DNA from: Curvibacter sp. PAE-UM
GTDB lineage: Bacteria > Pseudomonadota > Gammaproteobacteria > Burkholderiales > Burkholderiaceae_C
Assembly: GCF_001432305.1 (NCBI RefSeq)
Contig: NZ_KQ483358.1
Coordinates: forward strand, 814,881-878,880
Length of the DNA stretch: 64,000 nucleotides
Direction of reading: 5' to 3'
The translations under genes and the position numbers were made by a program. This document shows, one piece after another, positions 46,946 to 64,000 of this stretch. Every line of letters starts with the position of its first letter. Position 1 is the stretch's first letter. Under the pieces are notes generated by a model. That model searched no databases, was not told the origin of the DNA, and was given only the letters and a program-made list of their open reading frames with translations.

Positions 46946-47045
46946 GTCAGCGCACTCTCATCAGAAAAACTGATGCCCCCATCGCGACCCTGAGGGGGGC
47001 GAGGGTATTGCGGCGGACTACATTGCGTCGGTCTGCTGCCGGTAC

Positions 47046-47091: not shown

Positions 47092-47604
47092 ATGATCAAG
47101 ACCCGCAAACTGCTGGTGGTGGCTACCCTGCTGCTGGCCGGTACCGCTTTTGCCCAGACGCCCAACCCCCTGGACGTGGTGGCCGAGAAACAACCCAACG
47201 ACTTCCCTTACGGCAGCCCGATCAGCCTGGAGCGGGCCGACGCCGTGCTGGCGGCGGCCGTGGCCGAAGCCAGGCGCCGCAACTGGACGCTGGCCTGCGC
47301 CGTGGTCGATTCCGGCACCAACCTGGTGTCCTTCAAGCGCGTGGACGGCACCCAGATCGGCTCCATCGACGTGGCCATCCACAAGGCCCGTGCGTCGGCC
47401 AAGTACAAGCGTCCGACCAAGGCCTTCGAGGCAGGGATCCAGGGTGGCAACAACTATCTGCTGACCCTGGATGACGTGATCGCTTCGCGCGGCGGCATTC
47501 CGCTGATGGAGGGCGGCAAGATCATCGGTGCCATCGGCTGCTCCGGCGCTTCCGGCGCGCAGGACGAGGTGGTGGCCAACGCCGGCATCGCCGCGCTGAA
47601 GTAA
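47092..47604 (+). CDS. Secreted GlcG/HbpS-family protein
   Basis: A 170-residue exported protein with a signal peptide ending TAFAQ. The mature part is a GlcG/HbpS domain (ADAVLAAAVAEARRRNWTLACAVVDSG, DVAIHKARASAKYKRPTKAF, IPLMEGGKIIGAIGCSGASGAQDEVVANAGIAAL). HbpS binds haem in Streptomyces; the many secreted proteobacterial versions have no settled role. An AGGAG box precedes the ATG. Flanked by two Nac-like LysR genes, which suggests it belongs to a regulated small-molecule system. Confidence 0.9.
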   Translation: MIKTRKLLVVATLLLAGTAFAQTPNPLDVVAEKQPNDFPYGSPISLERADAVLAAAVAEARRRNWTLACAVVDSGTNLVSFKRVDGTQIGSIDVAIHKARASAKYKRPTKAFEAGIQGGNNYLLTLDDVIASRGGIPLMEGGKIIGAIGCSGASGAQDEVVANAGIAALK

Positions 47605-47624: not shown

Positions 47625-47661
47625 AAGGGGTCAATCTGCTCAGAGCAGGTTGACCCCTTTC
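47625..47661. terminator. Long hairpin, probable bidirectional terminator
   Basis: AAGGGGTCAATCTGCTC and GAGCAGGTTGACCCCTT form 17 pairs (one G-T) around a single A, so the real loop must open a few pairs. It ends in CCCCTTT for the plus-strand gene and covers the stop codon of the minus-strand LysR gene, so it may serve both convergent genes. Confidence 0.7.
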
Positions 47662-48722: not shown

Positions 48723-49994
48723 ATGGAAGCCAAACAGAACAAGCAAAAAAGCCAGGCGCCCTCCAGCCAGCGCCGCACCCTGCTGCAGGCCGGTGCCCTG
48801 GTGGCCGGCAGTGCCGCCCTGGGCCTGCCCTCGCTGGTCAGCGCCCAGTCGGGCCCGATCAAGATCGGCCACCTCACGCCCATGACCGGCTTCCTCGGTG
48901 CGCTGGGCGAGTATGCCGCGCAGGGCATCAAGATGGCGGCCGAGGAGATCAACGCCGGCGGCGGCGTGCTGGGCCGCCCACTGGAAGTGATGAGCGAAGA
49001 CTCGGTCAACCCGCAGACGGCCGCCACCAAGGCGCAGCGCATGATCGAGCGCGACAACGTCACGGTGCTGATGGGCGAGATCAACTCCGGCTCGGCGCTG
49101 ACCATCTCGCAGGTGGCCGCACGCAACAAGAAGCTGTTCATGAGCATCGGCGCGCGCTCCGACGCGCTGCGCGGCAAGGACTGCAACCGCTACACCTTCC
49201 ACGTCGACATCCCGGTGACGGTGATGGTCAATGCCGCCGGCGAGGCGCTGGTGCGTGAAGGCCACGTCAAGGGCAAGAAGATCTTCAGCCTGACGGCCGA
49301 CTACCTCTTCGGCCACGACCTGTCGCGCCAGGCCAAGCGTTTCTTCACCGCCAACGGCGGCACCGTGATCGGCGACGAGCTGGTGGCCACCGACGTGACC
49401 GACTTCAGCCCCTACCTGCTCAAGATCCGCCAGGCCCGCCCCGATCTGGTGGCCACCAACCTGGCCGGCAACCAGGTGACCAACTTCGTCAAGCAGTATT
49501 CGGAATTCGGCCTGCCCTACCCGGTGGCGGGTTTCAACCTGAACACCGCCGACGCCTGGGCTGCCGGCGAGGGCAATCTGGGCGGTATCTGGCCCACCGT
49601 CTGGCACCACGAGCTCAAGACCCCGGGTTCGCAGGCCTTCGTGGCCAACTTCACCAGGAAGTACGGCCGCATCCCGGAGAACCACGCCTGGATCGAGTAC
49701 GTCTCGCTCAAGATGATGGCCCAGGCCATGAACGCCACCAAGTCCACCGACACCGAGAAGCTGATCGCCTACTTCGAGTCCGAGGCCAAGTTCGACGTGC
49801 TGAAGGCTCGCCCGGCCTACTTCCGCAGCTGGGACCACCAGCTCATGCAGGAGGCCTATCCCTTCACCGTCAAGCCCAAGGGCCAGGCCAAGAACAAGCA
49901 GGACTTCCTGCTGTTCGGTGAAGCCGTGCCGGCCGCGAACCAGCCGCTGGACTCGCTGGCCCCTCCGAAGGCGGAGAGCGCCTGCAAGATGTAA
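48723..49994 (+). CDS. ABC transporter receptor, branched-chain amino acid/amide type
   Basis: A 423-residue periplasmic binding protein with a twin-arginine-like leader (SSQRRTLLQAGALVAGSAALG). The mature domain starts IKIGHLTPMTGFLGALGEYAAQGIKMAAEEINAGGGVLG, followed by MIERDNVTVLMGEINSGSAL and VTDFSPYLLKIRQARPDLVATN. This receptor class binds amino acids, amides, urea or aromatic acids, so the ligand is open. It is the first gene of a long plus-strand cluster and has an AGGAG box. Confidence 0.92.
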   Translation: MEAKQNKQKSQAPSSQRRTLLQAGALVAGSAALGLPSLVSAQSGPIKIGHLTPMTGFLGALGEYAAQGIKMAAEEINAGGGVLGRPLEVMSEDSVNPQTAATKAQRMIERDNVTVLMGEINSGSALTISQVAARNKKLFMSIGARSDALRGKDCNRYTFHVDIPVTVMVNAAGEALVREGHVKGKKIFSLTADYLFGHDLSRQAKRFFTANGGTVIGDELVATDVTDFSPYLLKIRQARPDLVATNLAGNQVTNFVKQYSEFGLPYPVAGFNLNTADAWAAGEGNLGGIWPTVWHHELKTPGSQAFVANFTRKYGRIPENHAWIEYVSLKMMAQAMNATKSTDTEKLIAYFESEAKFDVLKARPAYFRSWDHQLMQEAYPFTVKPKGQAKNKQDFLLFGEAVPAANQPLDSLAPPKAESACKM

Positions 49995-50097
49995 AGAAGC
50001 CGTGAGTTGATGGGAGGGGCGTTGCGTGCCGTGACGCCCCTTGCCTTGCCCGGGCCGCCGCGTGCGGTGCCGCGCCACTCCCACCCGTCTGGAAATC

Positions 50098-50973
50098 ATG
50101 GAAATCTTGTTCTTGCTCGAGCAGGTCGTCAACGGCCTGGTGCTCGGTGGTTATTACCTGCTGCTGGCCCTGGGCCTGTCGCTGATCTTCAGCGTGGGTG
50201 GCATCGTCAACCTGGCGCACGGCGCCTTCTATGCGCTGGGCGCCTACGTTTCGCTGGAGGTGATCAAGCATGCCGGCTTCACCGGCAGCATCTTCATCAC
50301 GCCGGCCCTCGTGGGCCTGCTGGGCATCCTGTTCGAGCGCTACCTGCTGCGCCGTTTCTACACGGCCGATCCCATCCTCAGCCTGCTGGTGACCTTCGGC
50401 CTGGCCCTGGTGGCCGAGCAGGCCCTGCGCATGGCCTGGGGCTCGGCCCCGCTGGCCTCCACCATGCCGCCCGAATTCAAGGGCCAGCTCATCATGGGCG
50501 ACATGATGTTCTCCAAGTACCGGCTCTTCATCCTGGGCGTGGTGACGGTGGTGATGGTCGGCATCTGGCTGCTGCTGCACAAGACCTCTTTCGGTCGTGT
50601 GGTGCGCGCCGGTGTGCAGAAGCCCGACATGGTGGCCGTGCTGGGCATCAAGCTGCAGCCCTATATGACGGCCATCGTCATGCTGGGTGTGGCCACGGCC
50701 GCGCTGGGGGGTGTGCTCTTCGGCCCCATCACCATCGTGCACCCGGCCATGGGCACCGAGATCATGACGGTGGCCTTTGTCGTCGTGGTGATCGGCGGCC
50801 TGGGCAGCTTCTGGGGCGTGGTGCTGGCGGCGCTGCTGGTGGGCGTGGTGCGCGGCATCACCATCCATTTCCAGCCGGCGGCCGGCGAGGCTTCCATGTA
50901 CGTGCTGATGTTCCTGGTGCTGATGTTCCGTCCGCGTGGCCTGCTGGGTGAGCGCATCGAACGCTTCGAGTGA
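50098..50973 (+). CDS. ABC transporter permease, LivH-like
   Basis: A 291-residue membrane subunit. Typical blocks are QVVNGLVLGGYYLLLALGLSLIFSVGGIVNLAHGAFYALGAYVSLEV at the start and GVQKPDMVAVLGIKLQPYMTAIVMLGVATAALGG in the coupling region. The ATG at 50098 is chosen because it opens directly before the first helix; the in-frame start at 50041 adds a basic, unlikely leader. Partner of the fused LivM-LivG-LivF protein that follows. Confidence 0.92.
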   Translation: MEILFLLEQVVNGLVLGGYYLLLALGLSLIFSVGGIVNLAHGAFYALGAYVSLEVIKHAGFTGSIFITPALVGLLGILFERYLLRRFYTADPILSLLVTFGLALVAEQALRMAWGSAPLASTMPPEFKGQLIMGDMMFSKYRLFILGVVTVVMVGIWLLLHKTSFGRVVRAGVQKPDMVAVLGIKLQPYMTAIVMLGVATAALGGVLFGPITIVHPAMGTEIMTVAFVVVVIGGLGSFWGVVLAALLVGVVRGITIHFQPAAGEASMYVLMFLVLMFRPRGLLGERIERFE

Positions 50974-50995
50974 GAACGAGAAGAAAACCAAAACA

Positions 50996-53530
50996 ATGAC
51001 TGCTCTGCTGAATTCCAAATACCGGCCCTTGTGGGTCGGCCTGGTCGCCCTGGTGCTGCTGCCCCTGGGGTTCCAGGCCATCGGCCTGACGCTGGACGCC
51101 GCTACCGTGGTGGTCATCCTGGCCATGGCGGCCATGGGCCTGAACCTGCTGGTGGGCACCACCGGCCTGGTCTCCTTCGGCCACAGCGCCTGGTTCGGCA
51201 TCGGCGGCTACGCAGCCGCGCTGGCCCAGCTGCACTGGTTCAAGGATCAGATCGTGCTGCCCTTCGCCTTTTCCATCCTGTTCACGGCGACCTTGTCGCT
51301 GCTGGTGGGCTTTCTCATCCTGCGTCGCCGCGGGGTCTATTTCTCGCTGCTGACGCTGGCGCTGACCGCGCTGACCTTTGCCATCGCCTTCCGCTGGACC
51401 AGCCTGACCGGCGGCGAGGGTGGCCTGGGTGGCATCGAGCGGGGCGGGCTGGCCCTGCTCAACCTGGACAGCCACCTGGTCTATTACGTGCTGGTGGCGC
51501 TGACTGGTTTTGCCGTGCTCTACGCCCTGCTGCGTGTGACACGCTCGCCCTTCGGCCATGTGCTGGTGGCCATCCGCGAGAACGAGCAGCGTGCGACCTT
51601 CCAGGGCTACAACGTCGACCGCTACAAGCTGCTGGCCTTTGTGATCTCGGCCACGGTGACCGGCCTGGCCGGCGCGTTGATGGTCTTCCTGCACCGCCTG
51701 GCCGCGGCCGAGTCCACCACGGTGGCCTTCTCGGGTGAGCTGCTGGCCATGGTGGTGATCGGCGGCATGCGCAGCTTCCTGGGCCCGGCCCTGGGCGCGC
51801 TGTTCTTCCTGCTGTTCCGCGAGCTGTTCTCCATCTACACCGACAACTGGCTGCTGTATTTCGGCCTGATCTTCGTCGCCTTCATCATCTTCTCGCCCGC
51901 GGGCCTGACCGGCATCTGGGCCCAGCTGCAGCGGCGCTGGCGTCCCGCGCCCGAAGACGGCGCCGCCATGAGCAAGCGCAAGATCTTCGAAGGCCTGCCC
52001 CTGCCCGAGTTCCTGCGCCCGAAGCGCGTCGAGGGCGCCGTGCTGGAGGCGCAGGGCATCAGCAAACGTTTTGGCGGCATCCAGGCCGTGCGCGAGAACA
52101 GCCTCACGATGGAGGCGGGACAGATCCACGCCCTGATCGGCCCCAATGGCGCGGGCAAGACCACGACCTTCAACCTGATCTCGGGCATGTTCATGGCCGA
52201 CACGGGCACGGTGCGCCTGCACGGGCAGGCCATCCAGTTCCTGGCGCCGGACCGCATCTGCCAGCAGGGCCTGGCCCGTTCCTTCCAGATCACCAATCTG
52301 TTCAAGGGCCTGAGCATCTACGAGAACCTGCGCCTCTCGCTGCAGGCGCGGCACGCGGCGCGCTTCAACGTCTGGCGCGACATCGACAGCTACCCCGAGG
52401 TTCACACCGAGACGACCGAGCTCATGAAGTTCCTGGGCCTGCAGGGCATGGAGCAGGTGGGCGGGGGCGACCTGTCCTATGGCGGCCAGCGCCTGGTGGA
52501 TCTGGGCATCGCCCTGGGCTCCAAGCCCCAGGTGCTGCTGCTGGACGAGCCGCTGGCCGGCCTGGCCGCGGCCGAGCGCGAGCGGGTCTCCAATCTGGTC
52601 AAGACCATCGCGAGCAACATCCCCGTGCTGATCGTGGAGCACGACATCGACCGCGTGTTGTCTTTCTCGCACCGCGTGACGGTGATGAACCAGGGCGAGG
52701 TGCTCATGAGCGGCACGCCCGAGGAGGTGCGCTGCGACCGGCGTGTGCAGGAGATCTACACCGGCACCGGCACGCCGCCCGTGACGGGCCGCACCGGCGT
52801 GGCCACGGGCGACCGGCCCCTGGTGCTGGACTTCGACAAGGTCAACGCCTTTTACGGCAAGAGCCACATCCTCAACGACGCCAGCCTGCAGGTGCGCGAG
52901 GGCGAGATCGTGGCGCTGCTGGGCCGCAATGGCGCGGGCAAGTCCACGCTGCTGAAAAGCCTGGTGGGCCTGCTGTCACCGGCCAGCGGCCGTGTGAACT
53001 TCAACGGCCGCGAGATCGCCGGCCTCAGCGCGCCCGACATTGCGCGCCTGGGCATCGGTTACGTGCCCCAGGGCCGCGGCCTGTTTGCCGGCATGACGGT
53101 ACGCGAGAACCTGTCGCTGGGCCGGCTGGCGCGTCCCACCGACGGCAAGACCGGCGTGGTCTGGGACGAGGCGCAGATCCTGGCCTATTTCCCGCGCCTG
53201 AAAGAACGCATGGACGTGGCGGCCGACTACCTCTCGGGTGGCGAGCAGCAGATGGTGGCCGTGGCGCGCGCGCTGTCGGGCAACGTCAAGCTGCTGCTGC
53301 TGGACGAGCCCTTCGAAGGCCTGGCGCCCACCGTGGTGCAGGAGCTGTTCACCGTGTTCGACAAGCTGCGCCAGCACGTGTCCATCGTCATCGTCGAGCA
53401 CAACCTGGATCTGGTGCTGGCCCTGGCCGACCGCGCCTATGCGCTGGAGCGCGGCGCCGTCTTCCACGAAGGCCCGGCCGAACCCCTGTTGACCGATCTC
53501 GATTACCGCAAGAAGATTCTCTGGCTCTGA
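50996..53530 (+). CDS. Fused ABC importer subunit: LivM permease + LivG ATPase + LivF ATPase
   Basis: A single 844-residue open frame that joins three normally separate subunits. Residues 1-318 are a LivM-type permease (MGLNLLVGTTGLVSFGHSAWFGIGGYAAAL, AIRENEQRATFQGYNVDRYKLLAF). A linker near 320-345 leads to a LivG-type ATPase (about 345-585; Walker A GPNGAGKTT, signature LSYGGQR, Walker B LLLDEPLAGL). Residues 606-844 are a LivF-type ATPase (GRNGAGKST, LSGGEQQ, LLLDEPFEGL). Both ATPase sites look intact. An internal ATG at 51968 has no ribosome site. The complex would need only LivH and the receptor in addition. Confidence 0.93.
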   Translation: MTALLNSKYRPLWVGLVALVLLPLGFQAIGLTLDAATVVVILAMAAMGLNLLVGTTGLVSFGHSAWFGIGGYAAALAQLHWFKDQIVLPFAFSILFTATLSLLVGFLILRRRGVYFSLLTLALTALTFAIAFRWTSLTGGEGGLGGIERGGLALLNLDSHLVYYVLVALTGFAVLYALLRVTRSPFGHVLVAIRENEQRATFQGYNVDRYKLLAFVISATVTGLAGALMVFLHRLAAAESTTVAFSGELLAMVVIGGMRSFLGPALGALFFLLFRELFSIYTDNWLLYFGLIFVAFIIFSPAGLTGIWAQLQRRWRPAPEDGAAMSKRKIFEGLPLPEFLRPKRVEGAVLEAQGISKRFGGIQAVRENSLTMEAGQIHALIGPNGAGKTTTFNLISGMFMADTGTVRLHGQAIQFLAPDRICQQGLARSFQITNLFKGLSIYENLRLSLQARHAARFNVWRDIDSYPEVHTETTELMKFLGLQGMEQVGGGDLSYGGQRLVDLGIALGSKPQVLLLDEPLAGLAAAERERVSNLVKTIASNIPVLIVEHDIDRVLSFSHRVTVMNQGEVLMSGTPEEVRCDRRVQEIYTGTGTPPVTGRTGVATGDRPLVLDFDKVNAFYGKSHILNDASLQVREGEIVALLGRNGAGKSTLLKSLVGLLSPASGRVNFNGREIAGLSAPDIARLGIGYVPQGRGLFAGMTVRENLSLGRLARPTDGKTGVVWDEAQILAYFPRLKERMDVAADYLSGGEQQMVAVARALSGNVKLLLLDEPFEGLAPTVVQELFTVFDKLRQHVSIVIVEHNLDLVLALADRAYALERGAVFHEGPAEPLLTDLDYRKKILWL

Positions 53531-53560
53531 GCCGCTGCAACACACAAGGAAGGAATGATC

Positions 53561-53947
53561 ATGAACAAGAAACCCGAGCTGCGGCTCCTGCTGGAAAAGA
53601 TGGCGAACATGCCCTGGAAGGAATACCCGGGCCACTTCGGCGGCGCCCTGTCCAAGGAGCTGGCCGGCCCCACCACCACGGGCAGCTCGCGCGTGGACTT
53701 CCGCATCTCGCGCTACGCGCCCATGGCCTATGTGCAGGAGCACGTGCACAAGGTGCAGGAGCAGGTGTATTACGTGCTTGAAGGCGAGGGCATCCTCACG
53801 CTGGACGACCAGAAGCAGCTGATGCGAGCGCACGATTACGTCTACGTGCCGCCCGGCATCCGCCACAGCTTCACCAACACCGGCACCGATGGCCTGGTGT
53901 TCCTGGTGGTCACCACGCCGGCCGACGACGAAGAGGAGATGCGCTGA
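53561..53947 (+). CDS. Single-domain cupin
   Basis: A 128-residue cupin with EHVHKVQEQVYYVLEGEGILTLDDQ and YVPPGIRHSFTN, which supply the metal-binding His/Glu set of cupin motifs 1 and 2. Such proteins act as small dioxygenases, isomerases or ligand-binding regulators. The ATG at 53561 follows AGGA at six bases; an in-frame ATG two codons earlier is equally possible. Its stop overlaps the start of the aldehyde dehydrogenase gene (TGATG), so the two are translationally coupled. Confidence 0.85.
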   Translation: MNKKPELRLLLEKMANMPWKEYPGHFGGALSKELAGPTTTGSSRVDFRISRYAPMAYVQEHVHKVQEQVYYVLEGEGILTLDDQKQLMRAHDYVYVPPGIRHSFTNTGTDGLVFLVVTTPADDEEEMR

Positions 53948-55416
53948 TGGACCGCAAGGTATCTGCCGTGATCGACACGGCCACGTCCGCCGCTCCGGCT
54001 GTCTACGGCCTGCTGGTCAACGGCCAGTGGATCGCCGGCACGGGCCCGCGCGTTGCCGTGCGCGACAAGTACAAATTGCAGCCCTGCGCCACGGTCACCA
54101 CCGCCGACGCGGCGCAGGTGCGCCAGGCCGTGGAAGTGACGCACGCTGCCTTCCGCCAGGGCGCGCCCGTGGCCTATGAGCGTGGTGTGGTGCTGGACCG
54201 CGCCGCCCAGTTGCTGGAGGCGCGCAGCGAGGAGTTCGTGCGCGCCATGCAGCTGGAAGCCGGTTTCACCCAGAGTGATGCCATGGGCGAGGTGCGCCGC
54301 TGCCTGCAGACGCTACGGCTTTCGGCCGAGGAGGCGCGCCGCCTGGCCGGCGACGTGATCCCGCTGGCCGGCGCGCCCGGCGCCGCCGGCCGCCTGGGTT
54401 TCACGCTGCGTGTGCCCCTGGGTGTGGTGGCCGCCATCACACCCTTCAACTCGCCGCTCAACACGGTGACGCACAAGGTGGCGCCGGCCTTTGCCGCCGG
54501 CAATGCCGTCATCCTCAAGCCTTCGTCCTTCACGCCCATCACCGCCTGCCTGCTGGCCGAGGTGCTGCTGGACGCCGGGATACCGAAGGGTTTCCTCAGC
54601 GTGCTGCATGGCAGTGCCGAGGTGGTGCAGGCCTTGCAGGCCGACGAGCGCGTGCGCTTTTTCGCCTTCACGGGCAGCACCGAAGTGGGCCGCAAGATCC
54701 AGCAGGCCGCCGGCCTGCGCCGCACGCAGATGGAGCTGGGCTCGATCGCCTGCACCATCGTCTGTGACGACGCCAAACTGGACGCGGCCCTGCCCAAGAT
54801 CGTCAATGCCGGTTACCGCAAGGCTGGCCAGGTCTGCACCTCGGTGCAGCTGCTGCTGGTGCACGAGTCGCTGCTGGCCGAGGTGGAAACGCGCCTGGGC
54901 CAGATGGTCAAGGAGCTGGTCTGCGGCGACCCGCAGGACAGCAAGACCTTCGTCGGCCCGGTCATCAGCGAAGACAACGCCATCCGCATCGAGGCCTGGA
55001 TCAACGAGGCCGTGGCGGCCGGCGCCAAGCTGCTGGCCGGCGGCCCGCGCCAGGGCGCCGTGGTGCCACCCACACTGTTGACCAACATCGGCGACGCCAT
55101 GAAGGTGGGCTGCAACGAGATCTTCGGCCCCGTGGTCTGCATCGTGCCTTTCAAGACCCTGGCCCAGGCCATCGCGCGCGTGAACGCCACGCCCTTCGGC
55201 CTCGCCACCGGCCTGTTCACCAACCGCCTGGGCGATGCGCTGGCCGCGGCCCAGCAGCTGGAGGTGGGCGGCGTGCACATCAACGAGACCTCGAGCTCGC
55301 GCGTGGACCTCATGCCTTACGGCGGCTCCAAAGACAGCGGCTTCGGCCGCGAAGGCCCGCATTACGCGGTCCATGAAATGACCGAAGAGCGTATCGTGAC
55401 GTTCACTGCGGTCTGA
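53947..55416 (+). CDS. Aldehyde dehydrogenase
   Basis: A 489-residue NAD(P)-dependent ALDH that oxidises an aldehyde to an acid. The catalytic cysteine is in KAGQVCTSVQLL, the general base Glu in QMELGSIACTIV (the usual ELGG reads ELGS), the nucleotide-binding segment is FFAFTGSTEVGRKI, and the ending EIFGPVVCIVPF and SSSRVDLMPYGGSKDSGFGREGPHYAV is normal. It lies between a cupin and a ThDP enzyme, so its aldehyde is probably produced by decarboxylation of a 2-oxo acid. The exact aldehyde is unknown. Confidence 0.92.
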   Translation: MDRKVSAVIDTATSAAPAVYGLLVNGQWIAGTGPRVAVRDKYKLQPCATVTTADAAQVRQAVEVTHAAFRQGAPVAYERGVVLDRAAQLLEARSEEFVRAMQLEAGFTQSDAMGEVRRCLQTLRLSAEEARRLAGDVIPLAGAPGAAGRLGFTLRVPLGVVAAITPFNSPLNTVTHKVAPAFAAGNAVILKPSSFTPITACLLAEVLLDAGIPKGFLSVLHGSAEVVQALQADERVRFFAFTGSTEVGRKIQQAAGLRRTQMELGSIACTIVCDDAKLDAALPKIVNAGYRKAGQVCTSVQLLLVHESLLAEVETRLGQMVKELVCGDPQDSKTFVGPVISEDNAIRIEAWINEAVAAGAKLLAGGPRQGAVVPPTLLTNIGDAMKVGCNEIFGPVVCIVPFKTLAQAIARVNATPFGLATGLFTNRLGDALAAAQQLEVGGVHINETSSSRVDLMPYGGSKDSGFGREGPHYAVHEMTEERIVTFTAV

Positions 55417-55448
55417 TACCTGACACCTGAAAGTAGAAAGAGCTGAAC

Positions 55449-57227
55449 ATGGCCAAGATGAAAGGTGGCGAACTGATCGCCCAATACCTGGTCCAGGAAA
55501 AAGTGCCGTACATCTTCGGCATCTGCGGCCACGGCAACGTGGGCATCCTCGATGCCCTATACGACGTGAAGGACGAGCTCAAGCTCATCTCGCCGCGCCA
55601 CGAGCAGTGCGCCGGCCACATGGCCGACGCCTACTTCCGCGTCAAGCACAAGCCGGTGGCCACGCTGACCTCCACCGGCCCCGGTTCGGCGAACATGGTG
55701 ATGTCCTGCGCCACCGCGCTGTCGGATTCGTCTGCCTTCCTGTGCATCACGTCCAACGTGCCGACCTCGCAGCACAACCGCGCGCCCTTCCAGGAGCTGT
55801 ACAAACACAACCAGGCCGACTTCGCGCAAGTGATGCGCCCGGTGGTCAAGCGGGCCTTCCAGCCCACGCGCGTGGACATGCTGCCGCTGGCCCTGCGCCA
55901 GGCCATGGACACCATGGTCACGGGCCGCCCCGGCCCGGTGAACCTGGACATCCCCTACAACGTCTACCAGGAAGAGGCGGATGTGGAGCTGCCGCCGCCC
56001 TCGCACGTGCAGCGCGCGCACCGCCCGGGCGCGAACGACGCTGACATCGCCATCGCACTGGACCTGCTGGCCGCGGCGCGCGAGCCCGTGCTCTTCATCG
56101 GCCACGGCGCCACCCTGTCCGAAGCCGGCCCCGAGATCACCGAGCTGGCCGAGAAGCTGGGCATCCCGGTCATCACCTCGCCCAATGGCATGGGCGCGAT
56201 CCGCGGCGACCACCCGCTGGCGCTGGGTTTCATCGGCCGCAACGGCGCCTACCCCGCCAACGAGGCCGGCCGCCGTTCGGACCTGGTGATCACGTTGGGC
56301 ACACGCTTCGACGACCGCAGCTCTTCGAGCTGGTTCGAGGGTTATTCCTGGAACTTCCCCAAGACCAAGCTCGTGCACGTGGACATCGACCCGCAGGAGC
56401 TGGGCCGCAACTACGCGCCCACACTCGGTGTGATCGCCGACGTGAAGGTCTTCACGCGCCAGCTGCTCAACGCGCTGCCCAACCGCAAGGACATCACGGC
56501 CACGCGCTACGCGCCCTGGCTGGCCCAGGTGCAGGGCTGGCAGGCCCAGTGGGAAGCTTTCGTGCGCCCGCACTTTGGTGACTCCACCAGCCCGCTGCGC
56601 CCCGAGTTCGTGGTGGGCACGCTGCAGAAGGTGCTGCCTGACGACGTGATCCTCGCACTCGACTCCGGCGTGCACCACAACTGGTTCATGCAGTTCTGGC
56701 AGGCCAAACGCCCGCAGAGCATGCTCAACAGCTGGGGCTATTCCAGCATGGGCTTCGGTGTCTGCGGTGTCATGGGTGCGGCGCTGGCCGCGCCCGACCG
56801 GCCTTGCGTGGCCGTGGTCGGCGACGGTGGTTTCACCATGGCGCCTTATGTGCTGTGCACGGCGGTGGAATACAACCTGCCCGTCGTCTGGATCATCTGG
56901 AACAACTTCGCCTGGGGCGCCATCCGCGATCTGCAGTACGGCCTGTTCGACGGCCGCGAGATCGGCACGGCCTTCTACCACGGTGAAACCGGCGCGCGTT
57001 ACAACCCGGACTTCGCCGCCTGGGCCCGTGCCTGCGGCGCCGACGGCTACACCGTGACCCGTCCGCAGGACCTGGGCGCCACCGTGCAGCAGGCGCTGAA
57101 GAACAAACGCCCCTGTGTGATCGACGTGCACGTCGATGCCGAGGTGCGTCCCCCCTCTACGGGTACCTGGCAGCTGCCCCCCATCCCCTACAAAGAACCG
57201 ATCTACGGCAAGCCTTACAAGGCCTGA
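55449..57227 (+). CDS. Thiamine diphosphate-dependent enzyme (acetolactate synthase/decarboxylase family)
   Basis: A 592-residue ThDP enzyme. The activating glutamate is E52 (SPRHEQCAGHMADAY), STGPGSANMV forms the first domain's loop, and the cofactor motif is GDGGFTM followed after the usual spacing by NN (IIWNNFAWG). The N-terminal FGICGHGNVGILDAL segment resembles the GHGN motif of the inositol-pathway hydrolase IolD more than acetolactate synthase. No small subunit follows, so a role as 2-oxo-acid decarboxylase, carboligase or C-C hydrolase is likely. It precedes an SDR gene by 30 bases. Confidence 0.9.
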   Translation: MAKMKGGELIAQYLVQEKVPYIFGICGHGNVGILDALYDVKDELKLISPRHEQCAGHMADAYFRVKHKPVATLTSTGPGSANMVMSCATALSDSSAFLCITSNVPTSQHNRAPFQELYKHNQADFAQVMRPVVKRAFQPTRVDMLPLALRQAMDTMVTGRPGPVNLDIPYNVYQEEADVELPPPSHVQRAHRPGANDADIAIALDLLAAAREPVLFIGHGATLSEAGPEITELAEKLGIPVITSPNGMGAIRGDHPLALGFIGRNGAYPANEAGRRSDLVITLGTRFDDRSSSSWFEGYSWNFPKTKLVHVDIDPQELGRNYAPTLGVIADVKVFTRQLLNALPNRKDITATRYAPWLAQVQGWQAQWEAFVRPHFGDSTSPLRPEFVVGTLQKVLPDDVILALDSGVHHNWFMQFWQAKRPQSMLNSWGYSSMGFGVCGVMGAALAAPDRPCVAVVGDGGFTMAPYVLCTAVEYNLPVVWIIWNNFAWGAIRDLQYGLFDGREIGTAFYHGETGARYNPDFAAWARACGADGYTVTRPQDLGATVQQALKNKRPCVIDVHVDAEVRPPSTGTWQLPPIPYKEPIYGKPYKA

Positions 57228-57257
57228 CATTTCACTCGAATCAATCAAGGATTTCCC

Positions 57258-57980
57258 ATGAGCAAGAAGATCGCACTCGTTTTCGGCGGCACGCGCGGCA
57301 TCGGCGCGGCGACGGTCCAGAAACTGGCCGAGGGCGGCTACGACGTGGCCTACACCTATGTGAGCAGCGCGCCCAATGTGCCGGCCAAGATCGGCAGCGC
57401 CACGACCCGGGGCTACAAGGTCGACATCCGCGAGGCGGCCCAGGTGGCCCAGGTGTTCACCGATGTGGCCAGGGACTTCGGCAGCATGCCCCATTGCGTG
57501 GTGGCCAACGCCGGCATCAACGTGCCGCCCGGCCCCATCGCCACTTACGACCCCGAGAACTTCCGCAAGGTCGTGGAGGTGAACCTCATCGGCGCCTTCA
57601 ACGTGCTGAGCGCGGCCGCGAAGCACGTGGTGGACGGCGGCAACATCATCGGCCTGACCACCTCCATGGTGCGCGTCGCCGTGCCCGGCGGCGGTGCCTA
57701 CACCGCCACCAAGGCGGGCGTCGAAAGCCTGCTGCGGTCCATGTCCAAGGAACTGGCGCCGCGCAAGATCCGCGTCAACGGCGTGGCCCCGGGCCCGGTG
57801 GACACGGACCTGTTCCGCGCCGGCAAGGACGAAGCCGCCATCGCGCGCTCGGCCGGCATGAGCCCCTTTAACCGCGTGGGCCAGCCCGAAGAGGTGGCCG
57901 AGGTCGTGGCCTTCCTGGCCTCCGACAAGGCGTCCTGGGTGCACGGCCAGATCATCCAGCCCAACGGCGGCATGGTCTGA
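57258..57980 (+). CDS. Short-chain dehydrogenase/reductase
   Basis: A 240-residue classical SDR. The cofactor motif is GGTRGIGAATV (TGxxxGxG form), NAG is present (VANAGIN), the active-site Ser lies in LTTSMVRV and the Tyr-x3-Lys is YTATK. The ending WVHGQIIQPNGGMV is usual. It probably oxidises or reduces an alcohol/ketone in the same pathway as the ThDP and aldehyde enzymes. The next gene starts five bases after its stop. Confidence 0.92.
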   Translation: MSKKIALVFGGTRGIGAATVQKLAEGGYDVAYTYVSSAPNVPAKIGSATTRGYKVDIREAAQVAQVFTDVARDFGSMPHCVVANAGINVPPGPIATYDPENFRKVVEVNLIGAFNVLSAAAKHVVDGGNIIGLTTSMVRVAVPGGGAYTATKAGVESLLRSMSKELAPRKIRVNGVAPGPVDTDLFRAGKDEAAIARSAGMSPFNRVGQPEEVAEVVAFLASDKASWVHGQIIQPNGGMV

Positions 57981-57985
57981 TCTCG

Positions 57986-58882
57986 ATGCGCCTCGCGGTC
58001 TTCACCAAGAACTTTACGAACCCGGCCTACGGCGCAGCGCGCCTGGGCGCGGAGCGTGCGGCCGCGGTCTTCGGCGACGAGGTGCTGCACTTCGTTCCCC
58101 AAAAGGGTGACGACCCGGTGGAGCAGAGCGCGCTGATCGAGCAGGCTCTGGCATTGAATCCGCGACCCGATGCCTTCGTGTTTTCGCCCGTCCATGCGAG
58201 CAGGGTGGATGCGGCGATCGGCCAGGTGGTGGCCGCTGGCATCCCCATGATCGGCTTCGTCAACCCGATCGCGGCCGCGCCCATGGTGAGTTACGTCAGC
58301 TCGGACGATGAGCAGCTGGCGCAGGCGATCGCCAGCTACCTGTTCAGACATCTGCAAGGCAAGGGCCGGGTGCTCGTGGTGACGGGCCCCGAGGAGTCCT
58401 ACACCAGCCAGGAGCGTCTGCGCGGTTTCCGCGACGCCGCGTGCGCCCTGCCCGGCATCGTGCTGGTCGGCCAGATCGCGGGTGACTACGTGCGCGAGAC
58501 CGCACGGGACCGCACGGCGGCCTGGCTGCGCGACAACCCGGAACCCGATGCGGTGCTGGTGGCCAACGACATCATGGCCATCGGCGTGCTCGATGCATTG
58601 GACGCCGCGGGGAAGACCGCGGCCGTGGTCGGTGTGAACGCCATTCCCCAGGCCATCGAGGCCATCGCCGCGGGCCGCATGCTGGCCACGGCCGATTTCA
58701 ACGCCATGCAGATGGCCTATCTGGCGGCCGAATGCGCGGCGCGCCACCTGCGTGGTGAGACGGTGCCGGCTTCGGTGGAACTGCCCGTGCAGATCGTGGA
58801 CCGAGGCAATTTCGCGCAGTGGAACCTGCCCTACGAGCAGCGCCCCGTCATCACCTTGGAACAACTGAGGAGCAAAAAATGA
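57986..58882 (+). CDS. Periplasmic-binding-protein-like protein without signal peptide
   Basis: A 298-residue type-1 solute-binding fold of the sugar/LacI class: MRLAVFTKNFTNPAYGAARLGAERAAA, DAFVFSPVHASRVDAAIGQVVAAGIPMIGF, LVVTGPEESYTSQERLRGFRDA and DAVLVANDIMAIGVLDALDAAGKT. The first strand starts at residue 2, so there is no export signal and no helix-turn-helix. A cytoplasmic ligand-binding or sensing protein is implied. The stop overlaps the ATG of the next gene, so it is made together with the Bug receptor. Confidence 0.82.
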   Translation: MRLAVFTKNFTNPAYGAARLGAERAAAVFGDEVLHFVPQKGDDPVEQSALIEQALALNPRPDAFVFSPVHASRVDAAIGQVVAAGIPMIGFVNPIAAAPMVSYVSSDDEQLAQAIASYLFRHLQGKGRVLVVTGPEESYTSQERLRGFRDAACALPGIVLVGQIAGDYVRETARDRTAAWLRDNPEPDAVLVANDIMAIGVLDALDAAGKTAAVVGVNAIPQAIEAIAAGRMLATADFNAMQMAYLAAECAARHLRGETVPASVELPVQIVDRGNFAQWNLPYEQRPVITLEQLRSKK

Positions 58883-59850
58883 AACGCAACTTCCTGAAGC
58901 AGGTCCTGGGCGGACTGCTGCTGGCCACGCTGGCCGGCGGTGCTGTCGCGCAGGACTACCCAAACAAGCCGATCCGTCTCGTGGCGCCCTTCGCGCCGGG
59001 CGGCGCGGTCGACATCCTGGCGCGCATCATCGGGGAGCGCCTGAGCACCCAGTACGGCCAGAACGTGATCGTCGACAACAAGCCCGGCGCCAGCGGCCAC
59101 CTGGGTGCGCAGATCGTGGCCAAGGCGCCCGGCGACGGCTACACCCTGATGGTGGGCACCATCGGCATCCATGCTGCCTACGCCAGCTACAGCAAGCTGA
59201 CCTACAAGCCGGCCGAGGAGCTGCGGCCCGTGCTGATCATTGGCGAGTCGCCCAATATCGTGGTGGTGCCTGCGAACTCCAGGTACAAGACCTTTGCCGA
59301 CTTCCTGGCCGATGCGAAAGCGAATGCCGGCAGGATCAACTACGCCACGGCCGGCGCCGGCTCCTCGGTGCACATGGTCACCGAGCTGTTCCAGCTGGCC
59401 ATCGGCCAGCGCATGAACCACGTGCCCTACCGAGGCAGCGGTCCGGCCCTGATCGACCTGATCGCCGGCCAGGTCGACGTGATGTTCGACAACATGTCCT
59501 CCGGCATGCCGCACGTGCAAAGCGGCAAGCTGCGTGTGCTGGCCGTGACCGGTTCGAAGCGCGACCCGCGCCTGCCGGAGGTGCCCACCATCGCCGAAGC
59601 CGGTGTGCCCGGTTACAGCGGCACCTCGTGGTTCTCGCTGGCCGCACCGGCCAGCATGCCGGCCGCGCTGGTGGCCAAGCTCAACCAGGACGTGCAGCGT
59701 GTGCTGGCCAGCCCCGAGGTGGTGGCGCGCTACGACAAGCTGGGCATGAACTACACACCTAACAGCCCGGCCGAGGCGACGGCGTTTTTCAAGAGCGAAA
59801 CCGAGAAGTGGACCCGCGTGATCGAAGCGGCCAGGATTCAACTCGACTGA
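58879..59850 (+). CDS. Bug-family (TctC) periplasmic receptor
   Basis: A 323-residue exported receptor with signal peptide ending GGAVAQ. Family landmarks: PNKPIRLVAPFAPGGAVDILARII, YATAGAGSSVHMVTELF, YRGSGPALIDLIAGQVDVMF and the C-terminal AEATAFFKSETEKWTRVI. A GAGG box precedes the ATG, which overlaps the previous stop. It probably binds a carboxylate relevant to the cluster. No TctA/TctB genes are present in the window. Confidence 0.92.
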   Translation: MKRNFLKQVLGGLLLATLAGGAVAQDYPNKPIRLVAPFAPGGAVDILARIIGERLSTQYGQNVIVDNKPGASGHLGAQIVAKAPGDGYTLMVGTIGIHAAYASYSKLTYKPAEELRPVLIIGESPNIVVVPANSRYKTFADFLADAKANAGRINYATAGAGSSVHMVTELFQLAIGQRMNHVPYRGSGPALIDLIAGQVDVMFDNMSSGMPHVQSGKLRVLAVTGSKRDPRLPEVPTIAEAGVPGYSGTSWFSLAAPASMPAALVAKLNQDVQRVLASPEVVARYDKLGMNYTPNSPAEATAFFKSETEKWTRVIEAARIQLD

Positions 59851-59865
59851 CCCCAGGAGACCAAC

Positions 59866-60837
59866 ATGCTGAAGCAACTGATCCATCCGCTGCTGGTGAC
59901 CGGCCTGCTGGCCGCCAGTCTCTGTGCCCAGGCCCAGGACGTCTTTCCCTCCCGGCCGGTCAAGATCGTCGTGCCCTATGCGGCCGGTGGTCCGGCCGAC
60001 CTGCTGGCCCGCGGCGTGGCCGAGAAGCTGGGCCCGCGCCTGGGCCAGCCCGTGGTGGTGGAGAACAAGCCGGGTGCCGGCGGCCACACGGGCGCCGAGC
60101 AGGTGGCCAAGGGCCCGGCCGACGGCTACACCCTGGTGCTGGCCACGATTGCGCACAACGGCGCGGTGGCCCTGTACCCCAAGCTGCGTTACGACCCCAT
60201 GAAGGAGCTCAAGCCGGTGATCCTGCTGGCCGAAGCGCCCAGCATCCTGATCGTCAAGCAGGACCTGCCGGCCAAGTCGGTGCAGGAGCTGTTGGCGCTG
60301 GCCCGGGCCCAGCCCGGCAAGCTGACCTACGGTTCGGCCGGCAATGGTTCGGCCATGCACATGGCGGCCGAGCTGTTTCGTTACATGAGCAAGGTGGACT
60401 ACGTGCACGTGCCCTACCGCGGTGGCGCGCCGGCCATGGCCGACCTGCTGGGCGGCCAGATCGACATGCTGTTCGAGAGCCTGGGCACGGCCCATCCGCA
60501 GCTCAAGAGCGGCAAGGTGCGTGCCCTGGCCGTGACCGGCACCAGCCGCAGCCCCAGCCTGCCCGATGTGCCCACCGTGGCCGAAGCCGGTGTGCCCGGT
60601 TACTCCTCGGTGCCCTGGTACACCCTCTCGGTGGCCAGCGGTACGCCGGCGGCCATCGTCAGCAAGCTCAATGCCGAGCTCAACGTCGTGCTCAAGGACA
60701 AGGACCTGGTGCAGCGCTGGGACGGCCTGGGCATCATGGCCCTGGGCGGCACACCGGCCGATGCGCAAAAGCGCAACGAGGCCGAGACGAGCAAGTGGAC
60801 GGCGGTGATCAACGCGGCCAACATCAAGTTGGATTAA
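59866..60837 (+). CDS. Second Bug-family (TctC) periplasmic receptor
   Basis: A 323-residue receptor similar to the preceding one: signal peptide ending AQAQ, PSRPVKIVVPYAAGGPADLLARGVAEKL, YGSAGNGSAMHMAAELF and YRGGAPAMADLLGGQIDMLF. The two genes are adjacent paralogues, but their ligand-side residues differ in places (for example GSG against GGA), so they may bind different acids. An AGGAG box precedes the ATG. Confidence 0.92.
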   Translation: MLKQLIHPLLVTGLLAASLCAQAQDVFPSRPVKIVVPYAAGGPADLLARGVAEKLGPRLGQPVVVENKPGAGGHTGAEQVAKGPADGYTLVLATIAHNGAVALYPKLRYDPMKELKPVILLAEAPSILIVKQDLPAKSVQELLALARAQPGKLTYGSAGNGSAMHMAAELFRYMSKVDYVHVPYRGGAPAMADLLGGQIDMLFESLGTAHPQLKSGKVRALAVTGTSRSPSLPDVPTVAEAGVPGYSSVPWYTLSVASGTPAAIVSKLNAELNVVLKDKDLVQRWDGLGIMALGGTPADAQKRNEAETSKWTAVINAANIKLD

Positions 60838-60847
60838 GCGCCCGGGC

Positions 60848-62332
60848 ATGCAGAGAGAAGAACGGACTTACGACGTGGTGGTGGTCGGCGGCGGCGGCGC
60901 CGGCTTGGCCGCGGCCATCGAGGCGCGCGAGAGCGGGCGCAGCGTGCTGCTGCTGGAGAAGAACCCGGCCCTGGGCGGCTCCACGGCCTGGTCCATCGGT
61001 TCGGTGACGTCCAGCGGCACGCCGCATCAGAAAAAGCGCGGCATCGTCGACAGCCCCGCGGACCACTGGGCCGACATGCCGGGGTTTGCGGGTGAGCTCG
61101 ATGCCCGCGACAACCCCGAGCTGCGCCGCATCCTCTGCAACGAGATCCCCGCCACCTTCCAGTGGCTGCTCGACTCCGGCGTGCGTTTCATGGGCCCCAT
61201 GCCCGAGCCGCCGCACCGCCAGCCGCGCATGCACAACGTGCTGCCCAATTCACGCGCCTTCATCTACCACCTGGGCCGGCGTGCGCGCCGCGTTGGCGTG
61301 GAGATCCGCACCGGCCTGCGCGTCACGGCGCTGCTGCAGGAGGGCGGGCGCGTGACCGGCGTCGATGCCGAGGGTGACAGCGGCCTGAAGCGCTACATGG
61401 CGCGCGGCGGTGTGGTGCTGGCCGCGGGCGACTTCACCAACGGCCCCGAGTTCAAGGCTCGTTTCATGGGCCCGCAGGAGGCCAAGGTGGAGGGTGTGAA
61501 CCTCACGGCCACCGGCGACGGCCAGCGCCTGGGCGAGACCCTGGGCGCGCGCATCGTCAACGGCGACCTGGCCCTGGGCCCCGAGATCCGTTTCATCGCC
61601 CCGGCCACCGAGACCTTCGTGCGGCGCCTGCCGCCCTGGCGCTGGCTGGCGGTCTTCATGCAGTGGTCGCTGGACCACCTGCCCCAGGCCATCCTGCGGC
61701 CCTTCATGATGAAGTTCCTGACCACGGCGCTGGCGCCCTCGACCACGTTGTTCGAGCAGGGGGCCATCCTGGTCAACCAGCGCGGCGAGCGTTTCGGCAA
61801 CGAACTTGACAAACCGGCCTGGCGCCTGCCCGACCAGCCCGGCAAGGTGGGCTACATCGTGATCGATGCCGCACTGGCGCAGCAGTTCTCGGCCTGGCCG
61901 CACTTCGTGTCCACCGCGCCGGGCATCGCCTATGCCTACATCCCCGACTACCGCCAGAACCGGCCCGACGTCTACGCCGAGGCGCCGACGCTGCCCGAAC
62001 TGGCGCGCAAGCTCGGCATGGACGCGACGGTGCTGGCGAGCAGCGTGGCGGCGGCCCCGGTGCGCCCCCTGGGTGCAGGGCCCTACGTGGCGCTGGGCCC
62101 GGTGCGTTCGGTCTTCGTGCACAGCGAGGGCGGCCTGATGGTGGACCACCAGCACCGCGTGCTGGGTGCCGACGGCCAGCCCGTGAGTGGACTGTACGCT
62201 GCGGGTTCCACCGGCCAGGGCGGCCTGCTGCTCAAGGGCCATGGCCACCACCTGGCCTGGGCCTTTGTCTCGGGCCGGCGCGCGGGCCGCCTGGCGGCCC
62301 AATCCGGCACGCCCGACCGGCAGCCATCCTAG
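60848..62332 (+). CDS. FAD-dependent oxidoreductase, fumarate reductase/ketosteroid dehydrogenase-like
   Basis: A 494-residue flavoprotein with VVVVGGGGAGLAAAIEARESG binding the ADP part of FAD, LLLEKNPALGGSTAWSIGS, GVVLAAGDFTNGPE and a C-terminal GLYAAGSTGQGGLLLKGHGHHLAWAF segment that closes over the flavin. Members oxidise or reduce carbon-carbon double bonds next to carbonyl or carboxyl groups. No haem or signal peptide is present, so it is cytoplasmic. It follows the two Bug receptor genes and probably acts on their ligand. Confidence 0.88.
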   Translation: MQREERTYDVVVVGGGGAGLAAAIEARESGRSVLLLEKNPALGGSTAWSIGSVTSSGTPHQKKRGIVDSPADHWADMPGFAGELDARDNPELRRILCNEIPATFQWLLDSGVRFMGPMPEPPHRQPRMHNVLPNSRAFIYHLGRRARRVGVEIRTGLRVTALLQEGGRVTGVDAEGDSGLKRYMARGGVVLAAGDFTNGPEFKARFMGPQEAKVEGVNLTATGDGQRLGETLGARIVNGDLALGPEIRFIAPATETFVRRLPPWRWLAVFMQWSLDHLPQAILRPFMMKFLTTALAPSTTLFEQGAILVNQRGERFGNELDKPAWRLPDQPGKVGYIVIDAALAQQFSAWPHFVSTAPGIAYAYIPDYRQNRPDVYAEAPTLPELARKLGMDATVLASSVAAAPVRPLGAGPYVALGPVRSVFVHSEGGLMVDHQHRVLGADGQPVSGLYAAGSTGQGGLLLKGHGHHLAWAFVSGRRAGRLAAQSGTPDRQPS

Positions 62333-62355
62333 CCATCACAATCTGTGATACCCCC

Positions 62356-62389
62356 TTGTGCCCCGACCCCTCGCCGGGGCGGGGCACAA
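62356..62389. promoter_or_regulatory. GC-rich inverted repeat upstream of the second SDR
   Basis: TTGTGCCCC and GGGGCACAA form a perfect nine-base inverted repeat around a GC-rich centre that can itself pair (GCCCC...GGGGC). No T run follows on the plus strand. It may end the flavoprotein transcript or be an operator; a GTATAC core lies just after it at 62391-62396. Confidence 0.45.
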
Positions 62390-62430
62390 CGTATACAGTG
62401 CATGCTTATCTTCTCAGCAAGGCACAGATC

Positions 62431-63186
62431 ATGGATTTGCAACTCAAGGACAAGACGGCGCTGGTCACCGGCGCCAGCGCAGGCATCGGCCGTGGCATCG
62501 CCAAGACCCTGGCCGCCGAAGGCGTGCGTCTGGCCATCACGGCGCGCCGCGTGGACAAGCTGCGTGAAGTCGCCGCCGAGATCGTGGCCGCTGGCGGCCA
62601 CGCCCCGGTGCTGATCGAGCAGGACATGTATGCCGAGGACGCCGCGAAAAATCTGGCCCGGGCCGCCATCCAGGGCCTGGGGCACGTGGACATCCTGGTC
62701 AACAACGCCGGTGGTTCGCGCAGCTTCAAGGACCTGCACGTGAGCGAAGAGCAGTGGCAGGAAGCCATCACGCTGAATTTCCACCGTCCGCGCCAGCTGG
62801 GCGACGCCCTGATCGACCAGATGATCGAACGCAAGTGGGGCCGCATCGTCTGCATCACGGGCAAGAGCGAGCCCGAGCACATCAACGGCGCCTTCTGCGC
62901 CAAGGCCGGCATCCACAGCTGGGCCAAGGGCCTCTCGCGCATGGTGGGCCAGCACGGCATCACGGTGAACTGCGTGCCGCCCGGGCGCATCATCTCCGAG
63001 CAGATCATGCGCAACTACTCGCCCGAGTTCCAGAAGTGGCAGTGCGAGAACGAGATCCCGGTGGGCCGCTACGGTGAGCCCGAAGAGCTGGCCAATCTGG
63101 TGACCTTCCTGGCCTCGCCGCGCGCCGGCTACATCACGGGCGCGGTGATCCCGGTCGACGGCGGCCTGCGCAAGTACCAGTTCTGA
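62431..63186 (+). CDS. SDR-family protein lacking the catalytic tyrosine
   Basis: A 251-residue SDR-fold protein. The cofactor motif VTGASAGIGRGIAK and NNAGG are intact, as is the lysine (K158). The tyrosine expected four residues before it is Ala154 (segment NGAFCAKAG), and the usual serine region reads CITGKSEPE. Similar SDR proteins with CAKAxxHxWAKGLSR occur in Burkholderiales (recalled), so this is probably a conserved subgroup and not a random mutation. The ATG at 62431 is preceded by AAGG; the upstream in-frame ATG at 62356 lies in the inverted repeat and is unlikely. Confidence 0.88.
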   Translation: MDLQLKDKTALVTGASAGIGRGIAKTLAAEGVRLAITARRVDKLREVAAEIVAAGGHAPVLIEQDMYAEDAAKNLARAAIQGLGHVDILVNNAGGSRSFKDLHVSEEQWQEAITLNFHRPRQLGDALIDQMIERKWGRIVCITGKSEPEHINGAFCAKAGIHSWAKGLSRMVGQHGITVNCVPPGRIISEQIMRNYSPEFQKWQCENEIPVGRYGEPEELANLVTFLASPRAGYITGAVIPVDGGLRKYQF

Positions 63187-63274
63187 ACGGAACAGGCTGA
63201 GCGCACCGCTCTCCGGCCTGCAGGGGCCCGGGGGCGGCGCATGAGTTTTCCCGAAGAGGGTTGGAGTTGTACGT

Positions 63275-64000
63275 ATGAGTCTGGACGTCCTGGTGATCGG
63301 TGGCGGCAATGCCGCCCTGTGCGCCGCCCTGATGGCCCGTGAGGCGGGTGCCAGCGTGATGCTGCTGGAGTCCGCGCCCAAAGAGTGGCGCGGCGGCAAT
63401 TCCATCCACACGCGCAACCTGCGCTGCATGCACGATGCGCCGCAGGACGTGCTGCAGGAAGCCTACCCCGAAGAAGAGTTCTGGCAGGACCTGCTCAAGG
63501 TCACCGGCGGCCTCACCAACGAGCACCTGGCCCGCCTGACCATCCGCGCTTCCTCCACCTGCCGGCCCTGGATGATCAAGCACGGTGTGCGTTTCCAGCC
63601 CTCGCTGTCGGGCACCCTGAGCCTGTCGCGCACCAACGCCTTTTTCATGGGCGGGGGCAAGGCCCTGGTCAACGCCTACTACCGCAGCGCGGAGAAACTC
63701 GGCGTACAGATCCGCTACAACGCAGCCGTGGATCGCCTGGACATCCAGGACGGGCAATTCAAGGCGGCCTACATCGGCGATGAGCGCATTGAGGCCAAGG
63801 CCTGTGTGCTGGCTGCCGGCGGTTTCGAATCCAACCGCGCCTGGCTGCGCGAGGCCTGGGGCCAGAACGCCGACGGTGAATGGCCGGCCGACAACTTCCT
63901 GATCCGCGGCACGCGTTTCAACCAGGGCGTGCTGATCAAGGACATGATGAAACACGGCGCCGACATGATCGGCGACCCCTCGCAATCGCACTGCGTGGCC
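63275..64000 (+). CDS. FAD-dependent tricarballylate dehydrogenase-like protein (3' truncated by window)
   Basis: The gene starts at ATG 63275 (GGAG box nine bases before) and runs off the window after 242 codons. The protein opens with DVLVIGGGNAALCAALMAREAGASVMLLE, then EWRGGNSIHTRNLRCMHDAP, YPEEEFWQDLLKVTGG, and LSLSRTNAFFMGGGKALVNAYYRSAEKLG. These match, from memory, TcuA, which oxidises tricarballylate to cis-aconitate. With the Bug receptors nearby it suggests that a tri- or dicarboxylate is handled by this cluster. Confidence 0.87.
   Translation, partial: MSLDVLVIGGGNAALCAALMAREAGASVMLLESAPKEWRGGNSIHTRNLRCMHDAPQDVLQEAYPEEEFWQDLLKVTGGLTNEHLARLTIRASSTCRPWMIKHGVRFQPSLSGTLSLSRTNAFFMGGGKALVNAYYRSAEKLGVQIRYNAAVDRLDIQDGQFKAAYIGDERIEAKACVLAAGGFESNRAWLREAWGQNADGEWPADNFLIRGTRFNQGVLIKDMMKHGADMIGDPSQSHCVA

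Follow-up and report, generated by a model that had tools for sequence, protein, structure and literature searches.

A conserved and apparently undescribed gene module around a GHGN-type thiamine-diphosphate enzyme, set within a tcu locus of Curvibacter sp. PAE-UM

Does a long row of same-strand genes in Curvibacter sp. PAE-UM encode a single pathway, and what might such a pathway degrade? The row starts at position 48723 of a 64-kb stretch (the window; G000:C1:814881-878880, with positions counted from its first letter) within the 3.63-Mb genome. An initial annotation had described it as one candidate catabolic pathway, composed of an ATP-binding cassette (ABC) importer, a cupin, a thiamine-diphosphate (ThDP) enzyme with an IolD-like GHGN motif, an aldehyde dehydrogenase (ALDH), two short-chain dehydrogenases (SDRs), two Bug receptors, and two flavin adenine dinucleotide (FAD) enzymes, one of them TcuA-like. 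Gene calls from open reading frames, with families assigned by Pfam and NCBIfam profiles, bore out this gene set. The importer, cupin, ALDH, ThDP enzyme, SDR, periplasmic-binding-type protein, both Bugs, and the FAD enzyme make up a single module, but this module lies within a tcu locus, to which the second SDR and TcuA belong. Judged by its gene families, the stretch from the regulator LysR_b to the FAD enzyme (47.6-62.3 kb) is a conserved catabolic module.

Conservation of gene order, which had been suggested as a check on the pathway reading, was confirmed among relatives. Orthologues of the ThDP enzyme, ThDP1 (E ≤ 1e-100), were present in 12 of 60 genomes including the source genome, and in 7 of 25 same-genus relatives. 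Eight of the 11 relatives examined, with ThDP1 identities of 91-98%, kept the series SBP-LivH-LivMGF-cupin-ALDH1-ThDP1-SDR1-FAD-TcuA (names as listed below) in the same order and on the same strand; the remaining three, which are more distant (ThDP1 identity 48-68%), retained parts only. This gene order is beyond chance. PBP4-Bug1-Bug2 was found in six of the eight near relatives and SDR2 before TcuA in three, the same three that carry a block with a split ThDP enzyme located beyond the window; two contigs among the eight stop inside TcuB. A locus survey across beta- and alphaproteobacteria, using one genome per species, covered 80 loci of at least 558 candidate relatives, and five annotated plasmids brought the total to 85, of which 21 under 15 kb were left out. 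In the 64 loci counted, where presence was scored by identity cut-offs of our own choosing, the cupin was found in 57, ALDH1 in 53, SDR1 in 47, LivMGF in 44, and LysR_b in 42, followed by the FAD enzyme (29), a KstD-like FAD enzyme (28; one or the other in 52), TcuA (20), and TcuB (19). A Peripla_BP_4 protein was part of the module in 20 loci, and an HbpS/GlcG-like homologue lay near ThDP1 in nine. The genes concerned are arranged in the window as follows:

46013-46945, +, LysR_a, LysR-type regulator assigned to the resident tcu locus, in a tcuR-like position (its L142 orthologue matches LysR Pfam domains)
47092-47604, +, HbpS/GlcG-like protein, encoded between LysR_a and LysR_b and opening the extra stretch (PF03928)
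47640-48575, -, LysR_b, LysR-type regulator of the module, divergently oriented (PF00126, PF03466)
48723-49994, +, SBP, ABC substrate-binding protein of HAAT type (PF13458)
50098-50973, +, LivH-type permease (PF02653)
50996-53530, +, LivM-LivG-LivF fusion (LivMGF) of 844 aa, a permease plus two ATPase domains (PF02653, two PF00005 stretches)
53555-53947, +, small cupin (PF07883)
53947-55416, +, ALDH1, aldehyde dehydrogenase (PF00171, 467 bits)
55449-57227, +, ThDP1, ThDP enzyme (PF02776, PF00205, PF02775; also motif and fold)
57258-57980, +, SDR1, short-chain dehydrogenase (PF13561)
57986-58882, +, PBP4, Peripla_BP_4 protein with a sugar-binding-type periplasmic fold (PF13407)
58879-59850, +, Bug1 receptor (PF03401)
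59866-60837, +, Bug2 receptor (PF03401; 46% identity to Bug1)
60848-62332, +, FAD, dehydrogenase or reductase of the FAD_binding_2 family, distinct from TcuA and closing the module (PF00890)
62431-63186, +, SDR2, short-chain dehydrogenase belonging to the tcu locus (PF13561)
63275-64000, +, TcuA, FAD-dependent enzyme of the tricarballylate-dehydrogenase family, its gene ending at about 64693 beyond the window (NF006130)

At least 12 co-directional genes had been claimed; from 48723 to 64000 we count 13, all on the + strand and running from SBP to TcuA in the order listed, including PBP4 at 57986-58882, which the earlier list had missed. The row continues to about 70.9 kb and comprises 19 genes, the six beyond the window being TcuB, ThDP alpha, ThDP beta, a second aldehyde dehydrogenase (ALDH2), MmgE/PrpD, and a D-2-hydroxyacid dehydrogenase. 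TcuA scored 771.6 bits with NF006130 (cut-off 369) and was the sole gene in the genome above this cut-off, the FAD enzyme at 60848 scoring 150.9 bits; TcuB passed NF011607 (678.2 bits, cut-off 524).

We inspected 12 TcuA loci in relatives that lack ThDP1 and compared six of these at the nucleotide level. A LysR_a protein with more than 50% identity was found in 8 of the 12. In five relatives (L135-L139), LysR_a stands directly upstream of TcuA-TcuB; the nucleotide match ends at 46926-46987 and picks up again at 63262-63284, points that lie 98-190 bp apart in the relative, so that 16.3 kb is absent. In L142, from a genome (G006) with no ThDP1 match, SDR2 sits between LysR_a and TcuA, and the match resumes at 62428, just before SDR2, leaving out 15.5 kb. 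About 15.5 kb, from the HbpS-like gene to the FAD enzyme, is extra relative to the tcu locus of these empty-site relatives, and 65.9-70.2 kb (split ThDP enzyme, ALDH2, MmgE) is extra relative to three of L135-L139. Since relatives keep the tcu part alone, the row is composite, and the idea of a single conserved pathway unit extending from 48723 up to the window's end was rejected. What stood of the one-pathway claim was a conserved catabolic module; what did not was its extension to TcuA and SDR2.

The border of the two pieces between FAD and SDR2 carries a strong hairpin (62356-62389, z -3.9) that is followed by no T run and was not found by a simple search in the three near relatives with SDR2 at that place. 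No tRNA gene that could mark an insertion was present in 44-64 kb, and repeats were searched for inside each border stretch separately. In 2-kb windows, G+C content was 0.649-0.699 across the module and 0.596-0.663 at 40-46 kb.

Breakage of the gene order into unrelated conserved pieces had been named as the outcome that would speak against a pathway. The order does break in part, because TcuA and SDR2 belong to a tcu locus that relatives keep alone, but despite the composite row the two pieces are linked in other lineages. TcuA (NF006130, E ≤ 1e-100) was found in all 12 genomes that have ThDP1 versus 18 of the 48 that lack it (Fisher p 0.00012, uncorrected for kinship), one of these 18 scoring under the curated cut-off. 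We then hand-picked 30 other ThDP1 genomes, mostly named isolates, from the 80 loci. TcuA was present in 29 of the 30 and within 20 kb of ThDP1 in 17; after removal of nine picked with TcuA or TcuB visible in the locus, the figures were 21 of 21, one of them with a weak TcuB, and 9 of 21. One genome, G118, had no TcuA profile match, yet its locus (L112) contains a stretch 71% identical to TcuA. In a sample of 300 genomes from the order, TcuA at E ≤ 1e-100 accompanied ThDP1 in 19 of 19 genomes, within 7 kb in 11 of the 19. TcuA-family genes beside ThDP1 occurred in several differing arrangements among the loci. Two TcuA-family genes in ThDP1 genomes have one in-frame stop each (G099:C181:145586-146968 and G117:C2:73859-75232).

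We next consider ThDP1 itself. The GHGN motif occupies residues G27-H28-G29-N30 in the N-terminal active-site loop, with E52 also present, and, as the initial annotation had proposed, it aligns with the same motif in five of five IolD proteins. In the alignment, Gly-His-Gly was present in all 78 ThDP1-like rows (74 loci) as well as in these IolD proteins; the other four full-length ThDP enzymes of the genome carry PGG, PGE, PGI, and PGA at this position, its own acetolactate synthase having Pro-Gly-Gly, and the motif of its own glyoxylate carboligase is PGAAIN. IolD is the 3D-(3,5/4)-trihydroxycyclohexane-1,2-dione acylhydrolase of myo-inositol catabolism, and in some lineages isomerase, Gfo/Idh/MocA, and ALDH genes likewise stand near ThDP1. 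However, ThDP1 is only 26% identical to IolD and falls below the IolD model TIGR04377 (274.1 bits, cut-off 715), G058 has both enzymes, and no IolD match at E ≤ 1e-150 was found in the source genome. ThDP1 also falls below TIGR00118, the model of the biosynthetic acetolactate synthase large subunit (391.3 bits, cut-off 538.35).

A second ring-opening ThDP enzyme, cyclohexane-1,2-dione hydrolase (CDH), shares 26% identity with ThDP1, ranked 23rd in the profile search, and is FAD-binding according to the title of entry 2pgn. His28 has the same number in ThDP1 and CDH, and the structural match starts from residue 2 in both, an agreement of numbering rather than a residue-level alignment; when such an alignment was attempted with a 40-residue ThDP1 query, CDH was absent among the listed matches. 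The structural match list includes an entry titled CDH-H28AN484A, and a review describes CDH as cleaving the ring and its H28A/N484A variant as coupling pyruvate to ketones instead (PMC12247030). Confidence in the ThDP1 structure model is low around residues 106-117, 289-302, and 486-520. If our reading of the pathway holds, the module would be an IolD/CDH-type ThDP ring-opening route by function, but by sequence it is a member of neither.

Two further ThDP genes came to light in the survey. A haloarchaeal gene (L133:7001-11000) with 38% identity to ThDP1 and the motif PGHGST adjoins genes annotated as scyllo-inosose 3-dehydrogenase and sugar phosphate isomerase, and perhaps encodes a ring-opening ThDP enzyme for inositol breakdown that does not belong to the IolD family. 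A plasmid of Aminobacter sp. MSH1 (L117:8547-15782) has two ThDP1-type genes (50% and 65% identity) together with Gfo/Idh/MocA, epimerase-like, and SDR genes.

The neighborhood of ThDP1 in other lineages also contains hints of ring chemistry. Three of the KstD-like proteins scored 363-441 bits with the model of 4-oxocyclohexene-carboxylate 5-dehydrogenase, below its cut-off of 900. Loci from alphaproteobacteria and Paraburkholderia additionally encode a TIM-barrel isomerase (in 16 of the 64 loci) as well as epimerase-like dehydrogenases (in 18 and 15 of the 64). Known ligands of the Peripla_BP_4 family are cyclic sugars and inositol.

We tentatively propose, as a route that is quite possible without being probable, that the module imports a small alicyclic acid, that ThDP1 opens the ring, and that TcuAB delivers the product to the tricarboxylic acid (TCA) cycle. 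Gene content, gene order, the module borders, the motif, and the genomic linkage with the TcuA family can be read directly from the genomes; the substrate, every reaction, and the direction of flow are predicted from the enzyme families. A small alicyclic, probably hydroxylated carboxylic acid would be taken up by the Liv-type ABC importer, the Bug receptors serving as accessory binders. SDR1 and the FAD enzyme would oxidize or desaturate the ring to a cyclic 1,2-dione, which ThDP1 might open hydrolytically, like IolD and CDH, to an aldehyde acid. ALDH1 could then convert the aldehyde into a di- or tricarboxylate, and TcuAB would desaturate a tricarballylate-like product that enters the TCA cycle near cis-aconitate. 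The chemistry that the initial annotation had envisaged for an acid substrate, namely reactions at a double bond, C-C cleavage, and oxidation of an aldehyde, fits these enzyme families.

Other explanations account for the same genes with different chemistry. ThDP1 could be a 2-oxo acid decarboxylase acting on an acyclic carboxylated substrate, with ALDH1 oxidizing the resulting aldehyde and no ring being opened. We regard this as possible but doubtful: acetolactate synthase models are the nearest curated ones, 5-guanidino-2-oxopentanoate decarboxylase is also among the matches, the neighboring split ThDP enzyme, ALDH2, and D-2-hydroxyacid dehydrogenase have the make-up of such a route, and ALDH1 and ALDH2 share 53% identity, but Gly-His-Gly replaces Pro-Gly-X in ThDP1, and KstD-like FAD enzymes and sugar-type isomerases and epimerases surround it in other lineages. 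A carboligase or lyase of the glyoxylate carboligase or hydroxyacyl lyase type, joining or splitting small aldehydes, appears improbable; glyoxylate carboligase is the top structural rank for ThDP1, and a ThDP enzyme titled HKA synthase (BbmA) is its top sequence match, yet the fold is common to the whole superfamily and the ThDP1 motif differs from that of the genome's own glyoxylate carboligase.

It is also conceivable, though unlikely, that the module and the tcu locus serve unrelated pathways and became neighbors here by chance. The clean empty site in five relatives, and in a sixth up to SDR2, is in keeping with this, as is the occurrence of tcu genes in the 12 inspected genomes that lack ThDP1. 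Weighing against the link of ThDP1 with TcuA, and thereby against the proposed route, the order sample showed no TcuA enrichment at the stricter cut-off of E ≤ 1e-190 (2 of 19 genomes with ThDP1 versus 37 of 281 without), since distant ThDP1 genes accompany a more distant TcuA-like gene with 32-36% identity to the TcuA found here. On the other side stand the near-universal presence of TcuA in the hand-picked ThDP1 genomes, including all those chosen without TcuA seen in the locus, and the varied arrangements in which TcuA-family genes adjoin ThDP1.

A bolder form of the ring-opening route, which we consider decidedly unlikely, would have the whole 19-gene row degrade a trihydroxycyclohexane-carboxylic acid, similar to quinate or shikimate, without aromatization. 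Here, ThDP1 would open the oxidized ring between two keto groups, ALDH1 would yield 4-carboxy-2-hydroxyadipate, and the D-2-hydroxyacid dehydrogenase would form the 2-oxo acid, which the split ThDP enzyme might decarboxylate to tricarballylate semialdehyde; ALDH2 would then give tricarballylate, and TcuAB cis-aconitate for the TCA cycle. A ring with three adjacent oxygens and one carboxyl would indeed yield tricarballylate, each step having a matching gene in the row, and a type II dehydroquinase, a weak hint of quinate, was found near ThDP1 in 3 of 64 loci and in 1 of 8 further loci. Two results speak against it: the split-ThDP block is present in just three of the eight near relatives with the module, and G006 has the alpha, beta, and ALDH2 genes without ThDP1. 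If true, this form would supply tricarballylate dehydrogenase with a metabolic source of its substrate.

Tricarballylate utilization by tcuRABC is known in Salmonella. The locus resembles it in that TcuA and TcuB both score above their cut-offs and, in relatives, a LysR gene lies directly upstream of TcuA; it differs in that the ThDP module separates LysR_a from TcuA here, and no TcuC citrate-type transporter was found among the 19 genes of the row, to which this search was confined. Beyond the window, the alpha and beta genes of the split ThDP enzyme are similar to sulfopyruvate or phosphonopyruvate decarboxylase, which would pair with an aldehyde dehydrogenase, but a route of this kind was rejected with both models below cut-off (TIGR03845, 111 versus 147.95; TIGR03846, 140.4 versus 221.5). 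The beta subunit had no match in the plasmid search and was present in 3 of the 30 ThDP1 genomes, one of these with the same block.

The statement that no known pathway uses this set also held: no published description was found at the level of titles and abstracts, in a literature that leaves out most subscription journals, and the gene set is apparently undescribed. If the proposed route is true, it would represent a widespread, coenzyme A-free opening of nonaromatic carbon rings by soil and water bacteria, and it would connect the family of tricarballylate dehydrogenase with a source of its substrate further upstream. If the substrate is acyclic, the module would still be a conserved pathway, unassigned but clearly delimited, and it would still correct annotations that name, for example, an acetolactate synthase or a branched-chain amino acid transporter. 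Some close relatives carry the module and others have a clean empty site in its place, which offers a genetic handle.

The remaining observations concern individual parts of the row. Adjacent genes are spaced by -14 to 32 bp, apart from four wider gaps: SBP is followed by about 100 bp and TcuB by 80 bp, and SDR2 and TcuA are preceded by 98 bp and 88 bp, respectively; pntA follows the D-2-hydroxyacid dehydrogenase after 657 bp. The genome as a whole has 58 TctC/Bug matches, so two Bugs in the row are not unusual in themselves. PBP4 starts 5 bp after the end of SDR1, which leaves no room for a signal peptide, and none was seen by eye; it may act in the cytoplasm here. A hydrophobic leader was present in 2 of 19 listed PBP4 homologues (L106 and L119). 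Membership of the importer in the urea or branched-chain amino acid type was rejected, SBP scoring 108.4 bits with UrtA (cut-off 492.75), and its nearest solved relatives, judged by depositor names only, gave no pointer to a ligand; the fused ATPase passes the UrtD and UrtE cut-offs with a score that sums its two ATPase domains. The LivMGF fusion aligned over its whole 844 residues in the eight near relatives and is annotated as one gene on an M. nodulans plasmid.

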